64,000 nucleotides of DNA from Candidatus Syntrophocurvum alkaliphilum (GTDB lineage: Bacteria; Bacillota; Syntrophomonadia; Syntrophomonadales; Syntrophomonadaceae): positions 248,001 to 312,000 of the forward strand of contig NZ_CP046457.1 in assembly GCF_009734445.1 (NCBI RefSeq), read 5' to 3'. Within the stretch, counting starts at the first letter, position 1, and each line of letters begins with the position of its first letter. Of this stretch, positions 2,432-9,892 are shown in pieces. The translations under genes and the position numbers were made by a program. Under the pieces are notes generated by a model. That model searched no databases. It was not told where the DNA came from and was given only the letters and a program-made list of their open reading frames with translations.

Positions 2432-4144
2432 TTAATTACTAATATTATTTTTCAACAATTGTAGCATAGCATATAATTTGAAAAGAGTTGTAGTTGAATG
2501 GTTGCTATAGGGCTTTTCTGAATAATGTTCTAATTTATCTATATGTTTTTTAAAATCTTCAAGAAGATTTTGATCGGTATATTTATACTCACTTAATAAC
2601 TTATAAATATCTTTTTGCTTCTTTATTAAATTTGGAAAGTAGTTAAAATCTTCATGTACTAACTTTATTTCATGACTAACCTGTAGTTTAGATTCGATAA
2701 AATTTAAGTAAATATGTACTGTATCAGGTAATTCGTTTTTAGAATGAATGAAATCTAAGACAATATCTTGGCCACTAAATCTTTGTTGTGAAAAATAGCT
2801 TTCATCTTCTTCCTCTACTTCATAAATTCTAAATTTGACTTCATCAGAGTAAGGAGATAAATTATATGAACTTGTTTTATCAAGAGATATAATTTTGTAG
2901 CTTTGGTTAAAATCAAGCTCTATATTCTTAGTATCAAAAGGTATTTTTTCCAGAGATGAATTCTCATTTTCTAAATCATAAGATTCTATATAGAAATTAA
3001 AGGGATAAATACTCTTAATGTTTGAAAAATCATAATCTTTATTCTTATATGCACATAACCCTTTTAATACATTAAACTCTGGTTCTTCTGGTATTACTAT
3101 AAATACATCTTGAAAAGTATCTTGTATTAGCTCTTTTACACCAGAAGCGAGTGATCCACCTCCAACTAATAATACATAATCAAAATCGAATTTATTATCA
3201 TCAACTAATCCTAGATGTCGTGCTTTATGTAGAACACGATTATTTAGGTAATTCTCTAACCGGTTATATATTTTTTCAAGACTATTTAGGTATTGATTTT
3301 TATCAACAAACATAACTAGTGAATTATGATCATAAAAATCCGCTTCATTCAGGTAGAATTCTTCATTTGCAGTAAAATCAATTTTTAATTTTTCAGCAGT
3401 TCTTAACATACGATTAAGAATATAGCTTTGTTTAGGGTTTTTTATTTTTTCTGTGACGATTTCTTCTGGTATAACTTTTCCTGTTTGTATTGTATAAGCA
3501 GGAAATAAAATATTTCTTAATATTCCGCGATCTATCTCTGAACCACTAAAAGCATCATGGCCAGCTTGAAATTGAGTTTCTAAAACAACTTGATTATTAT
3601 CTGCGGCCACTGTTAGAAAACTAAAGTCACTTGTACCACCACCAATATCAATGCTTAAAATATCTCCAGAAAGGGGTAGGTTTGTAGAATGGTTATAACC
3701 TATAAGAGCTGCTATTGGTTCGGGTATTAAATAAACATCGTTTATGTTAAAGGCTTTTCTGATACTATGAAGCAATATATGTCTAGCATTTAATCCAAAA
3801 TAATTAGGAATTGATATACTAATAGATTGAATAGTTGCTCCTAAGGGATGTATGTATGTATTATTTAAATATACAAAAAACTTATAAATAATAGACTTTA
3901 AATTATAATTACCAAGCCTAAAATTAAGATTTCTTTTTAACTCTAACTTAAAGTATTGAGCTGTTATTGCATTTGGTTCATTTAAGCGTAAAGCAACATC
4001 ACCAAAATATAGTTTGTCTTGAATAGGTATATAAGAAACAACGCTAGGTATTGAATTGCCTTCACCTAATATATTAACTATTTTACCTTCTTCAAAATAA
4101 CCTAATTTAGTATAAGAAGTACCAAAGTCAATTCCTAAATGCAT
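2432..4144 (-). CDS. Hsp70/DnaK-like ATPase of a four-gene cassette
   Basis: A 570-residue member of the Hsp70/actin ATPase fold. Phosphate-1 loop 'IDFGTSYTKLGYF' is at 5-17, the 'PEPIAALIGY' helix at 141-150, phosphate-2 'IDIGGGTSDF' at 165-174 and the adenosine motif 'VLLVGGGSLASG' at 324-335. After about residue 370 the sequence no longer looks like a DnaK substrate-binding domain: it is a short beta-rich stretch (390-490) and a charged helical tail (500-570) without the DnaK C-terminal EEVD-like end. It is the last gene of a leftward operon with three unrecognised proteins (stops/starts at 4198, 5775, 7250). The ATPase call is firm. The role is unknown; a dedicated chaperone or switch for the neighbouring proteins is inference. 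Confidence 0.8.
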   Translation of the reverse strand: MHLGIDFGTSYTKLGYFEEGKIVNILGEGNSIPSVVSYIPIQDKLYFGDVALRLNEPNAITAQYFKLELKRNLNFRLGNYNLKSIIYKFFVYLNNTYIHPLGATIQSISISIPNYFGLNARHILLHSIRKAFNINDVYLIPEPIAALIGYNHSTNLPLSGDILSIDIGGGTSDFSFLTVAADNNQVVLETQFQAGHDAFSGSEIDRGILRNILFPAYTIQTGKVIPEEIVTEKIKNPKQSYILNRMLRTAEKLKIDFTANEEFYLNEADFYDHNSLVMFVDKNQYLNSLEKIYNRLENYLNNRVLHKARHLGLVDDNKFDFDYVLLVGGGSLASGVKELIQDTFQDVFIVIPEEPEFNVLKGLCAYKNKDYDFSNIKSIYPFNFYIESYDLENENSSLEKIPFDTKNIELDFNQSYKIISLDKTSSYNLSPYSDEVKFRIYEVEEEDESYFSQQRFSGQDIVLDFIHSKNELPDTVHIYLNFIESKLQVSHEIKLVHEDFNYFPNLIKKQKDIYKLLSEYKYTDQNLLEDFKKHIDKLEHYSEKPYSNHSTTTLFKLYAMLQLLKNNISN

Positions 4145-4197
4145 TTATATAGCTCCTTATAACGCTTTGTTTTGATAATATATAATTTATATAGTTG

Positions 4198-5775
4198 TTA
4201 AGCACTAACAACTATATAAGGAACTTCTTCTTCTATATTCTCATCTACTGTAATAATAAAAATGTCTCCTTCTTCATGCAAAACAGTATTAGGTTTTACA
4301 TTAGGAGATATTTTTGTTTCAATTCGTGCTTTATCCAATAGATATAAATAGTCACTTGGAAATTCTTTATCTTTTTCTATTTGTATTCTTTCTACTCGAA
4401 TATTAATATCTTTCCAAGTACGATTAATATTCCTTGGGGCTAACAGCCTTTCTAAGTCCCCTCTGATATTAGATAAGGTATTTAAATATACATTAAGGAT
4501 ATTAATAATATTTAAAAATTGATTAGTAACATTAGTAGAGTGGTTAACTTTTTCTTTTAGTAAATTTAATTTCGTTTCTAACAATGAAAGTTCCATATTT
4601 ACTTTTATTGTTGCTGATGAAATGATTCCAAATGATTTTAACACTGGGTTATTACTAATCATATTAAAAAATTCAGTTACATCACTAAGTTCATCTATAG
4701 TGTGTTTGGTAAAAAAATCTAGATCGGGTTCACTTGAATCAGATAAATCATTTATTATATTTTTAATTTTATCCGATGTCTTAGTGTTTTTTGATTGTAA
4801 TTTTGAAATCATAGCAAAATCTAATTGAATAACTTGGGATATGTTATCTAATAAGAACTTTTTTTCATTTGTTTCATAAACAACTGTTTTTTCAATTAGC
4901 TTAACAAAAGAAACTAGCCAATCCTCAAATTCTTGGGATATTTTAATTACTTTATCTTTATCCTTGACTTTAATATACATGGTTAATAACTCTAAGTACA
5001 TTAAAAACTGATTTTTTAGGTGATGCTCATAAAAAATTTGTAAATTAGCAGGGGTTTTTTCTTTTAATAAGTTTAAGGTGTTTTCTTTAAGCTCACTAAT
5101 AATTAATGAAGCATTGTCAATAAAATTATCATTTAAAACTTGTATTTTAACTAATAGCTTAATGTTATATTGTAGGTTAATTAGAAGTTTATTAATAGTT
5201 TCTGCTTGCTTAGAGTCACTCATATCTATTATATTAAACAGCTTGACAGCTGACACATGACCCGGATATTTATTTAAAATATTAATCAAATCTTTATCTT
5301 TATGGAATTCATTAACTAGCTTTATTAAATTATCTAGCTCGATTAAACTGTCTTCTACTTTTTTAAGTGCATATAATAATTCATATGTACGTTTATCCTG
5401 TTCGCGAATAATTTTAAGCAAATGACTATTTACACTTTCATAAGACTCAGACAACACAGACGTAATTGATTTAAGTTGGTTATATAATTTAGCATAACGT
5501 TTAATATTTGCCATAATATCTTTTTTAATCATATCTTCTTGGCGACTAATGCCATATAAAGTAGATATATCTTTTTCGATTTGTTTTTTATAAAACGGAA
5601 AAAATTCTTCATGAAAACTTTTATAGTAGAATGTGTTAATTTCATATATGTAATTATCTATATCTGAATTAGTTAATGAATTAGTTATTTTAGCCTCAAT
5701 TTCATTACTAAGCTTTTCTATAAAAATGTTTAGATTTTCTATATAATTTTTATTATCTTTTAAATTAGTGTTCAT
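4198..5775 (-). CDS. Unknown helical protein of the Hsp70-like cassette
   Basis: A 525-residue protein I do not recognise. It is almost wholly alpha-helical by composition, with long Leu/Ile/Lys/Glu/Asn-rich stretches (residues about 1-420) consistent with helical bundles or coiled coils, and no signal peptide, membrane segment, cysteine cluster or nucleotide-binding motif. Only the last 45 residues look beta-rich ('EGDIFIITVDENIEEEVPY'). Its ATG overlaps the stop of the upstream gene by one base (TAATG), so translation is probably coupled. The Hsp70-like gene follows after 53 bases. A GrpE-like or client/adaptor role for the ATPase is possible on context only. Confidence 0.6.
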   Translation of the reverse strand: MNTNLKDNKNYIENLNIFIEKLSNEIEAKITNSLTNSDIDNYIYEINTFYYKSFHEEFFPFYKKQIEKDISTLYGISRQEDMIKKDIMANIKRYAKLYNQLKSITSVLSESYESVNSHLLKIIREQDKRTYELLYALKKVEDSLIELDNLIKLVNEFHKDKDLINILNKYPGHVSAVKLFNIIDMSDSKQAETINKLLINLQYNIKLLVKIQVLNDNFIDNASLIISELKENTLNLLKEKTPANLQIFYEHHLKNQFLMYLELLTMYIKVKDKDKVIKISQEFEDWLVSFVKLIEKTVVYETNEKKFLLDNISQVIQLDFAMISKLQSKNTKTSDKIKNIINDLSDSSEPDLDFFTKHTIDELSDVTEFFNMISNNPVLKSFGIISSATIKVNMELSLLETKLNLLKEKVNHSTNVTNQFLNIINILNVYLNTLSNIRGDLERLLAPRNINRTWKDINIRVERIQIEKDKEFPSDYLYLLDKARIETKISPNVKPNTVLHEEGDIFIITVDENIEEEVPYIVVSA

Positions 5776-7238
5776 TATATTGCCCCCATCAACTTTGCTA
5801 GTACTAGTTCTAGTTTTGCGTTAGCATCTTTTTTAAGAAACAATTTAGGTTTTAATTTAAACTCAGAGAATAAGTCATTCATATTTTTCATGTTAGAAAC
5901 TAAAAATTCTGTTTCTTTGCGCAAATTATCGTCATCTTGTATTGCTAATTGATCTAAAATTTCTTTGTGTAAAAATAAGTTGCAAGGTATCCATTTCCAT
6001 AATTGATAGTAATTTTTCAAAAGACTAGAAGCTAAATAAGGGTCACTGATATTCTCTTGTTGAATTATTAATCTTAATAATTCAAAAATTACAAAAGCTT
6101 CATTTGGTAACGAGTATATCCTTTGTTCTCCTATATTTTTTAGCTGGAATAAAATATTATTATTTGGTTCATTAATATAAATATTATATAGTTCTACAAA
6201 ATCATCATGAGGTCTATAGCTATATATTTTGTTTATAATTTCTAAAAACTCATAAGATGCGAATTTGTTTATTTCATATAAATTTGTTCTTACTCTTTCA
6301 TAAATTAATAAGTAATGCAATGAAGCAGGATCTGGTGAAAACTTCTCAAACAACTTCTTATAAATCATCTGGGCATTATTGTAAGGAGAGGTAGAGCTAG
6401 CTAAAAGAGTGTAAGTGGGAACTACTTTGCGTAATAGTTTATTCATATTTTTGTATACGGTTTCTTCGTCAATAAGGTTTACTAAACGATTCTTATTACT
6501 AAAGTCTTCATATAGTTCTAACAAAGTAGCAAGAGAATCTTCTATAAGACCAACCATAAAAATATTATCACAAGCATTTAAAAGTGTGTTTACTCTTTCA
6601 GGACCATAGGGGTCTTGAAAGTTAGACACTGAACTAGAGGTTACTAAATTAATTGCACTAGAAACAAGTTCTGATTTTTTTCCAAAAGGTGTATCTTCAA
6701 ATATAGGGAGATCGTTAAGTTCAAGCAAACCATAATGATTGCTTTTAGATTGGTTAATAATATACGATTCTCGTTCTTTTAATAAGTTTTTAAAGTTTTG
6801 ATTTCCGGTTCGGGATAGTAGATAAGTGCAATTATTAATATCTAATACATTAACAATCTTAGTAAAGCTACTCAAATATTTATCTTGATAAATATTAATT
6901 AAGAAATTAAGATCCTTACCTTGTGGATTTGTTTTTATTATATGATAAGGAATAAATTCTAAAAATTCTTTGATAATAAAAGGGGTTTTTTGTAACCATT
7001 TAACTGTTATTAAATTATTCATATTATTGTATAAAATTTTATAAAAGATCTCTTTTTTATGAGAATAATAAAGAGATCTTTTTAATAGCTCAATTGTTTC
7101 TTCATTTTCAATAACTATATTATTAGGCTGTATATTAGAATTTCGGAGTTTGAGGCGAATATCAAGTTCTTTTTCCCAGATTTCAAAAAGGTTGTCCGAT
7201 TGAAGAGAGTGTTGAAACTCGGCAAGTATTTTATCCAC
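5775..7238 (-). CDS. Unknown helical-repeat-like protein of the Hsp70-like cassette
   Basis: A 487-residue protein with no family I recognise. It starts at a GTG with TAGGAGAA upstream, 11 bases after the preceding gene's stop. Composition is helical throughout, with repeated short Leu/Tyr-rich helices ('LASSLLKNYYQLWKWIP', 'LHYLLIYERVRTNLYE') that resemble degenerate TPR or HEAT repeats, although I cannot define a repeat period by eye. No signal peptide, membrane span or metal motif is seen. Likely cytoplasmic. The tight spacing on both sides makes it a core member of the four-gene unit. Confidence 0.6.
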   Translation of the reverse strand: MDKILAEFQHSLQSDNLFEIWEKELDIRLKLRNSNIQPNNIVIENEETIELLKRSLYYSHKKEIFYKILYNNMNNLITVKWLQKTPFIIKEFLEFIPYHIIKTNPQGKDLNFLINIYQDKYLSSFTKIVNVLDINNCTYLLSRTGNQNFKNLLKERESYIINQSKSNHYGLLELNDLPIFEDTPFGKKSELVSSAINLVTSSSVSNFQDPYGPERVNTLLNACDNIFMVGLIEDSLATLLELYEDFSNKNRLVNLIDEETVYKNMNKLLRKVVPTYTLLASSTSPYNNAQMIYKKLFEKFSPDPASLHYLLIYERVRTNLYEINKFASYEFLEIINKIYSYRPHDDFVELYNIYINEPNNNILFQLKNIGEQRIYSLPNEAFVIFELLRLIIQQENISDPYLASSLLKNYYQLWKWIPCNLFLHKEILDQLAIQDDDNLRKETEFLVSNMKNMNDLFSEFKLKPKLFLKKDANAKLELVLAKLMGAI

Positions 7239-7249
7239 AATAGATTCTC

Positions 7250-7969
7250 CTAAAAAATATCTTTTGACTTAGTACTAGAATATAGAGTTCTATTAAGTAT
7301 TCTACAAGCGTTTTTTGCTTTAGACTCTTCTGCTTCAGTCAAGAATATATAATAGTAGATTGATTTCTGTTTGTTAGTAAAAATTCCTCCTAATAAATCG
7401 GGGCGGATGAATTCAACTCGATCATTTTTGGCTTTATTTTTTGTTAAATAACGAATACTTTGCAAACGGGTAACGAAAGAGTAACGCCCAATTCTTTCGA
7501 AGTGTGTTTTTAAACCTTGTTCTTTATAAGGGTTAGAATCTTCATATTTATAAACTATTTCTTCTAACCGTGGTCTAGGTATATCTTCAGTTAATGAAGG
7601 ATGAAATATATCCTTAAGTTGTTCTATTGTTTCATAGTTTATGCAACCACCAAATACTTTAATAATGTATTCGTGCATGTGAGTTGGGAATAAATCATAA
7701 GTTATTGAACCATTTGTTATTTTATTTACTAATTTAGGATTAAATAACAAATGATTTATTAAATCATCAAAACCACATGTGAACTCAGTTAAATAGATAT
7801 TATAATAATCATTTAAAATCTTACTATATTTAAAATAAAAAACTCTATAAGATTCAGGAGAGTTTTCTTTTAAGTCTTTAATATAATTCATTAATTGACT
7901 ATACTCTAAACTTGATAATTGAACATGTTTATTTATCTTTCTTAATAGACTTCGCAACAAAATCACCAC
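7250..7969 (-). CDS. Unknown protein, first gene of the Hsp70-like cassette
   Basis: A 239-residue basic, Tyr-rich protein that I cannot assign. It holds a conserved-looking central stretch ('FPTHMHEYIIKVFGGC') and a C-terminal part with mixed aromatic strands ('QKSIYYYIFLTEAEES'). The start is uncertain: the longest frame begins at GTG 7969, with further GTG and TTG codons in the next few positions and no strong binding site. The upstream gap (7970-8052) is short and AT-rich and would have to hold the promoter of the four-gene unit unless transcription comes from the small gene before it. No membrane or signal sequence. Confidence 0.55.
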   Translation of the reverse strand: MVILLRSLLRKINKHVQLSSLEYSQLMNYIKDLKENSPESYRVFYFKYSKILNDYYNIYLTEFTCGFDDLINHLLFNPKLVNKITNGSITYDLFPTHMHEYIIKVFGGCINYETIEQLKDIFHPSLTEDIPRPRLEEIVYKYEDSNPYKEQGLKTHFERIGRYSFVTRLQSIRYLTKNKAKNDRVEFIRPDLLGGIFTNKQKSIYYYIFLTEAEESKAKNACRILNRTLYSSTKSKDIF

Positions 7970-8052: not shown

Positions 8053-8250
8053 TTAATATAAACATTTTATATCTAGTATTAATTCATCTTCAAGATTAGA
8101 AAAAGAAATAATAGTTCCATCATCAAGCATAATAGATATATGTGTTTCAGTAAATTCAATAATTTGAGTTATAGATTTATTGACTATATGTTTAGCGATA
8201 AATTTATAGTCATCTATTAAAAAACTAGATATTTTATAGGTTTGTTTCAT
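8053..8250 (-). CDS. Small protein of unknown function
   Basis: A 65-residue protein, start set at ATG 8250 because GAGGTG lies six bases upstream (a GTG at 8259 overlaps that site). It looks like a single small beta domain ('ISIMLDDGTIISFSNLEDE'). Unrecognised. It is on the same strand as, and 83 bases upstream of, the four-gene Hsp70-like cassette, and may be its first gene. Confidence 0.5.
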   Translation of the reverse strand: MKQTYKISSFLIDDYKFIAKHIVNKSITQIIEFTETHISIMLDDGTIISFSNLEDELILDIKCLY

Positions 8251-8858: not shown

Positions 8859-9473
8859 ATGTTGCTTAAGAAGTTGAAATTATTTGTATTTCCACTTGTT
8901 TTTATTTTTTTAACAACAATAATATTTTTTGATAATATTCATTTATTGAGCAAAAAAAATGACTCTATTATTAATACCTATATCCAAGGGGCTAAAGAAG
9001 GTAATTATGGTTATGGAAATCCTACTAATGCTAATAATAATATAAATTTCGAAAAACTTATTCTAGGTGACATTTTATTAGGTGGTTGGGAAAATTGTGC
9101 TTATGGTAGATTTTCTCATGCTGGCTTATATATTGGTAATAATATGGTTTTAGAAAGCTATATTGATTATGGTGTAACCCTAAATCCTGTACAACATTAT
9201 ACAAACTATCCTGAGATAGCAATTTTACGTGTTAATGCAGATAAAAAAGTAAGGCAAAACGCAGTTGACTATGCATTGAAGAAAGAGAATAGAATGTTTT
9301 TCCCTTTATCATTTAAAAACTCACAGCGGTATTTTAATTGTACTCATATAATATGGTTAGCCTATAATAAACAAGGTGTAAATCTTGATGAAAATAATGA
9401 TATTTTAGTTGCGCCAGATGACTATTACTATAGCACCCTAACAAAAGTATTAGAAGATAAGGGGCAATTATGA
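8859..9473 (+). CDS. YiiX-like permuted papain-fold cysteine hydrolase
   Basis: A 204-residue protein with an N-terminal hydrophobic anchor (residues 8-24), so it acts outside the membrane. The catalytic domain has the circularly permuted NlpC/P60 (YiiX/YebB) order: 'GDILLGG' at 70-76, His87 in 'FSHAGLYIG', and Cys161 in 'YFNCTHIIWLAY'. Such enzymes cut or transfer peptide or acyl groups in lipids or the cell wall; the substrate of this one is unknown. AAAGGAG precedes the ATG. It is translationally coupled (ATGA overlap) to the next membrane protein. Confidence 0.75.
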   Translation: MLLKKLKLFVFPLVFIFLTTIIFFDNIHLLSKKNDSIINTYIQGAKEGNYGYGNPTNANNNINFEKLILGDILLGGWENCAYGRFSHAGLYIGNNMVLESYIDYGVTLNPVQHYTNYPEIAILRVNADKKVRQNAVDYALKKENRMFFPLSFKNSQRYFNCTHIIWLAYNKQGVNLDENNDILVAPDDYYYSTLTKVLEDKGQL

Positions 9474-9892
9474 TGGGCATAACCATTTTAAGGTTGTTTT
9501 TTATACACCTAGGAGCTTTTTTGGCAATTATAGCTGCAACATATTTTTCAATAATTGATATTATCTTATCTTTTCTTTTTGTTTTTTTTATTTGGCATGA
9601 GGCTAAACTTGCCAAAAAACGATTAAAAGGATTTAGGTCTTTAATTGCAGTTACTATTTGGCAAATGCCAGGCTTGATAATGTCATTGCTGATTATAACG
9701 AATTTAACTGATTTATTTGGGTTTGGTGAATTTATTATTTTTTTATTGCAATTTTGGCATATGCCAATATTACCACTTTTATCAATATTGCCTGCTGTAG
9801 CTATTTTTGATAAACCCTTATATTACTATGGTATGCTAGGTTCATCATTATTTATAATTGGAGTATTTATAATAGGTTTAATGAAGAAATGA
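9470..9892 (+). CDS. Polytopic membrane protein, unknown
   Basis: A 140-residue, very hydrophobic protein with four likely membrane helices (about 5-25, 28-45, 60-80 and 115-137) and a basic cytoplasmic loop ('AKLAKKRLKGFR'). I do not recognise the family. Its ATG overlaps the stop of the YiiX-like hydrolase gene by four bases (a second ATG follows at 9473), implying coupled translation and a possible shared job at the membrane. Confidence 0.65.
   Translation: MMGITILRLFFIHLGAFLAIIAATYFSIIDIILSFLFVFFIWHEAKLAKKRLKGFRSLIAVTIWQMPGLIMSLLIITNLTDLFGFGEFIIFLLQFWHMPILPLLSILPAVAIFDKPLYYYGMLGSSLFIIGVFIIGLMKK

Follow-up and report, generated by a model that had tools for sequence, protein, structure and literature searches.

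A conserved Syntrophomonadales gene cassette links an Hsp70-like ATPase, reduced in several relatives, to three protein families without recognizable relatives

In the closed genome of Candidatus Syntrophocurvum alkaliphilum B(2M) (CP046457, 2,360,781 bases; PMC7005122), we identified a cassette of four tightly packed genes coding for an Hsp70-like ATPase and three proteins that match no known family. In related genomes, the ATPase domain is expendable, while the C-terminal module of the same protein and almost always all of its partners are retained. Our tentative reading, to which we give a little less than an even chance, is that the cassette specifies a cytoplasmic complex of the Syntrophomonadales lineage with the three partners as its core, and that the Hsp70-like subunit would dock onto this core, assemble or switch it, and sometimes be reduced to a scaffold. 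The cassette runs from position 7969 to position 2432 on the minus strand of the window, that is, the whole stretch of 64,000 nucleotides that was analyzed, and its features are as follows.

Positions 7250 to 7969, minus strand: gene 1, H239, a basic protein of 239 amino acids with a C-terminal alpha/beta domain
Positions 5775 to 7238, minus strand: gene 2, H487, a protein of 487 amino acids
Positions 4198 to 5775, minus strand: gene 3, H525, a protein of 525 amino acids
Positions 2432 to 4144, minus strand: gene 4, the Hsp70-like ATPase, 570 amino acids
Positions 8053 to 8250, minus strand: an open reading frame of 65 amino acids upstream of gene 1, a candidate fifth member

From gene 1 to gene 4, the intergenic gaps are 11, −1, and 53 bases; these gaps and the gene coordinates confirm a preliminary description that had taken the four same-strand genes for one unit. 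We searched 61 genomes with genes 2 and 4, then viewed 35 flanking regions and nine further loci, many of the relatives' genomes being fragmented MAGs. The order 239-487-525-ATPase, on one strand and in single copy, was found in about 30 genomes, whose cassette proteins are 19–50% identical, and the remaining loci are cut by a contig end or have lost the fourth gene. Such a recurrence of the four-gene grouping is far beyond chance. The codes f1, f2, and f3, like the genus codes in g, are the family and genus labels of the genome search tool itself. In family f1, the neighbors are genes for a C92-type amidase, PdaA, a MerR protein, an acyl-CoA dehydrogenase, and HdrA-like proteins, whereas in family f3 they are gerABC and a rhomboid protease gene; with two such unlike flanking sets, the unit evidently stays joined while its surroundings change. 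The earlier claim that the four genes travel together therefore stands, and neither scattered, unlinked homologs nor a clear match to a known pathway was found.

Homologs of the 65-amino-acid open reading frame, which the preliminary description did not list, occur at 11 other loci of the family. Where pdaA is present, they precede it, and elsewhere they precede gene 1; the frame is possibly a fifth member of the cassette. In the window, a gene for a C92/NlpC-like amidase (positions 8859–9892, plus strand) is followed by one for a conserved protein of about 150 amino acids that has no Pfam match, and both genes are divergent from the cassette in most f1 loci. Downstream of the cassette, on the same strand, positions 680–2269 hold a PspC and LiaF-like pair, a feature of this genome only; these two genes are absent from every other locus viewed and were rejected as members of the unit. 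An Rfam scan of the window gave no match. Locus L067 was assigned to S. wolfei because the adjoining acyl-CoA dehydrogenase contains the published peptides of Swol_0384 (PMC9676460). The names Swol_0386-0389 for its cassette genes are those expected by counting from Swol_0384, and in the papers searched, the S. wolfei copies do not appear under the locus tags so counted. Stops or a frameshift interrupt gene 2 at two other loci, L073 (G028) and L078 (G040), through either true decay or an assembly error.

The product of gene 4 joins a nucleotide-binding domain (NBD, about residues 1–365) to a private C-terminal module (about residues 373–570). A PDB profile search matched about residues 3–365 to BiP/DnaK with an E-value of about 1e-25, and the Pfam HSP70 family (PF00012) was matched by 16 of 16 gene 4 members. 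The NBD carries the motifs DFGTSYTK, K66, E142, D166-GGGT171, and GG328-329. Both phosphate motifs (phosphate-1 and phosphate-2), the adenosine motif, and the catalytic Lys, Glu, Asp, and Thr are present in the window and in all 16 intact members, among which D6-G-T, K66, E142, D166-GGGT171, and G328-G329 are invariant, in agreement with the intact ATPase motifs described at the outset. The C-terminal module, with the motif IYPF.FYIE...IPFDT.NLELD..YKI.S, is another matter. In a whole-length profile alignment with DnaK, it falls in the order of the substrate-binding SBD-beta, but the module alone scores 12.3 against the DnaK substrate domain, within the range of shuffled columns (8.8–19.5), and it gave nothing usable against PDB sequence profiles. 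Among 398 genomes of the phylum, it is found only in this cassette. Gene 4 also differs from Hsp70/DnaK in sharing a fixed operon with the genes of three orphan proteins and in having an NBD that is dispensable in several lineages. Several relatives (e.g., G020, G031, G007, and G038; L122 and L123) have another Hsp70-like family, of about 500 amino acids, of which the genome of the window yielded no member.

Weaker matches of the NBD to MreB and ParM-type profiles, members of the same fold superfamily, raise the question of an actin-like cytoskeletal filament with accessory proteins, which could serve, for example, cell curvature or the placing of structures, and the long coiled coil in the model of H525 would suit such a partner. 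However, the NBD and its catalytic residues are nearer to Hsp70 than to MreB or ParM, and gene 4 has a long private C-terminal module that sets it apart from both. It also tolerates the loss of subdomain IIB and part of its N-terminal half (mostly residues 51–82, in some cases the whole start of the domain), losses that should abolish polymerization, and yet the partners persist. As the presence of the cassette showed no correlation with flagella either, we consider a filament quite improbable.

These losses are systematic. Among the retrieved loci whose fourth gene could be scored, nine have a shortened version of 343–467 amino acids. In these, the three ATPase motifs have disappeared as a set, and about residues 198–295 (subdomain IIB) have been excised at nearly one place; about residues 51–82 are also gone in most of them and the first 117 residues in two. 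Remoter versions of 395 and 425 amino acids were recognized by eye at two more loci, and G023 and G036, which belong to one genus, have lost the fourth gene but kept genes 1–3. The genus-wise pattern of intact and degenerate forms was repeated in the nine further loci. The lengths of the degenerate proteins are steady (420–426 amino acids in one genus), so these genes are not pseudogenes. In pairs of intact proteins, the NBD is more conserved than the 487-amino-acid partner by 8.5 points on average, whereas in degenerate pairs it is 2.8 points below this partner; the conservation of the C-terminal module tracks the same partner in both groups alike. That the motor is stripped while the tail and, mostly, the partners are kept suggests that the partners rather than the motor form the core of the system. 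An ATPase motif that is intact in a single genome is thus no proof that the ATPase drives the system. Together, the genomes with an intact ATPase, with a remnant, or with no fourth gene, all of which keep the partners, provide a seldom-available natural test of what an Hsp70-like protein does beyond ATP hydrolysis.

How often this reduction took place depends on the tree used. On a reference tree built from the three partner proteins, which may differ from the species tree, the degenerate genomes do not form one clade (AU p 7.1e-6), and the degenerate state needs about four changes, two of which are forced by the starred branches alone. The well-supported sisters G019/G033 (intact) and G029/G010 (degenerate) are an example. 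In the tree of gene 4 itself, a single origin of the degenerate forms is not rejected (p 0.54), so that repeated loss and loss combined with transfer are both possible; against repeated reduction, the degenerate fourth genes could descend from one loss that was spread by transfer. The intact form, because it is carried by the outgroup family f3, is suggested to be the ancestral one.

The same distribution could fit a role like that of PilM or the cytoplasmic domain of GspL, actin-fold adaptors in the machinery of type IV pili and of type II secretion. The actin fold would then chiefly join other proteins, nucleotide being secondary even in the intact members, which is in line with the fact that, in genomes spread over more than one clade of the partner tree, the motifs are lost but the partners are not. 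However, the strict conservation of the catalytic positions in all intact members argues that ATP matters there, and the sequence of gene 4 is Hsp70-like rather than FtsA-like. No segment of the window's four proteins exceeded 1.6 in a Kyte-Doolittle hydropathy scan (19 residues), which leaves no membrane-spanning candidate for a PilN-like anchor, and no secretion or pilus genes adjoin the cassette. We regard such an adaptor as unlikely.

The three partners were reported to match nothing known, and our searches of Pfam, NCBIfam, PADLOC, and PHROGs bore this out, with chance coiled-coil matches only, also when Pfam was scanned with all members of the four family alignments; profiles of the trio gave nothing usable against PDB sequences. 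H239, the most conserved of the three, contains the motifs KExGLKxHFxRLxRYxFVxRLQ..RYL and D.LGGIFTNKEKSIYYYI. Since most aligned relatives begin with MRxILRKL, its start is probably the TTG at 7960 (236 amino acids) and not the GTG at 7969. The AlphaFold model of H239 (pLDDT 87) has helices followed by an alpha/beta domain (residues ~139–230), where its conservation is strongest. A fold search with this model against the PDB and viral models gave no match with an E-value under 0.001, and a resemblance to PTB/PH-like halves, the best of a second look (Z 3.9), was set aside as not meaningful. The invariant residues of H487 are F18, W21, E24, R32, F92, K188, G230, P378, W416, P418, and F422. The H525 model (pLDDT 86) shows a helix of 124 residues (36–159), a helical bundle, and another long helix (383–445), and it ends in a small conserved beta domain (459–524) with the motif L.PRN..R.WK...G..FP...EEGD.F. 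No significant fold match was found for it; matches to TTYH, chemoreceptors, and CdvB2, with Z up to 12, were below the chance level for long helices and were rejected. The initial designation of the partners as three helical proteins agrees with the very long helices of H525 but not with the alpha/beta end of H239 or the beta end of H525, as far as these two were modeled.

Partners without known relatives had also invited the idea of an anti-phage or other defense system, the sole argument for which is one of analogy. PADLOC gave no match (the best, at E 0.0055, was partial), and the cassette occupies a syntenic chromosomal place beside housekeeping genes. Relatives of the 239-amino-acid protein were not found on plasmids, phages, or viral contigs, and neither these searches nor the flanking regions revealed a mobile or island context or patchy transfer. 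A defense role is therefore regarded as very improbable.

The cassette belongs to a bacterial class known for syntrophic fatty-acid oxidation. The 525-amino-acid gene is present in 49 of the 63 genomes of this class, including four of four in family f3 and none of five in family f2. Some complete or near-complete genomes of family f1 lack the cassette, so the complex would be dispensable; the losses concern genera g6, g7, g12, and g17 and family f2. Across the phylum, the 239-amino-acid gene occurs in 10 of 398 genomes, all in families f1 and f3, and none was found in the sampled genomes outside the class. No correlation was seen between the presence of the cassette and that of polyhydroxyalkanoate synthase or sporulation genes. 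Three families without relatives, joined throughout the history of a class, point to an as yet unnamed cellular structure or process.

We propose that the cassette specifies a dedicated cytoplasmic protein complex in which the four proteins would bind one another and the three orphan proteins would form the working core (Syntrophomonadales lineage). H525 would be rod-like, with its long coiled coil and small beta domain, and H239 would supply the most conserved surface, probably for binding or catalysis. The ATPase would use its private C-terminal module to dock onto the trio, and in its intact form, it would assemble or switch the complex by means of its ATP cycle. Several lineages may have come to do without this cycle, and their NBD would have been pared to a non-catalytic remnant with only the docking role left. 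Three points speak against this proposal: the cassette has no J-domain or GrpE gene, its C-terminal module does not score above chance against the Hsp70 substrate domain, and some complete genomes of the family have no cassette at all. Profile scans of the partner proteins indeed found no J-domain or GrpE match, and in each family, only one or two of some 30 members contain the HPD tripeptide. It is a reasonable, if minority, possibility that the cassette encodes a new machine private to the Syntrophomonadales, made of three families without relatives and a detachable Hsp70-type drive that was repeatedly turned into a dead scaffold. If true, these genomes would offer a graded set of Hsp70-like proteins, from ones that work to ones that are dead.

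A link with sporulation has to be weighed against this complex, namely, a machine made in sporulating cells that serves the cortex or germination, with pdaA and gerABC marking its regulon. One of these two adjoins the cassette at 14 loci: pdaA (TIGR02884) is directly upstream, on the same strand, at 11 loci of one family, and the genes of the GerABC receptor are beside gene 1 at three loci of a sister family. Nearly all the genomes are also those of spore formers, as judged by their SpoIVA and SASP genes. However, the clustering with spore genes that had been envisaged is seen in some genomes only, and the cassette is retained in genomes without a recognizable pdaA, including that of the window, and it is missing from spore formers in family f2 and in other families. 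No consistent match to sporulation sigma promoters was obtained when the region upstream of gene 1 was searched with regular expressions, and a model of the family's SASP promoters found nothing convincing there, a weak test in that pdaA scores no better. A spore or germination machine is thus regarded as unlikely. The SASP genes of the family (L124-L153) share a strongly conserved promoter-like element, GCATA-N14-GGAAACAATAAG, about 60–70 bases before the start, which resembles a sigF/sigG-type site.
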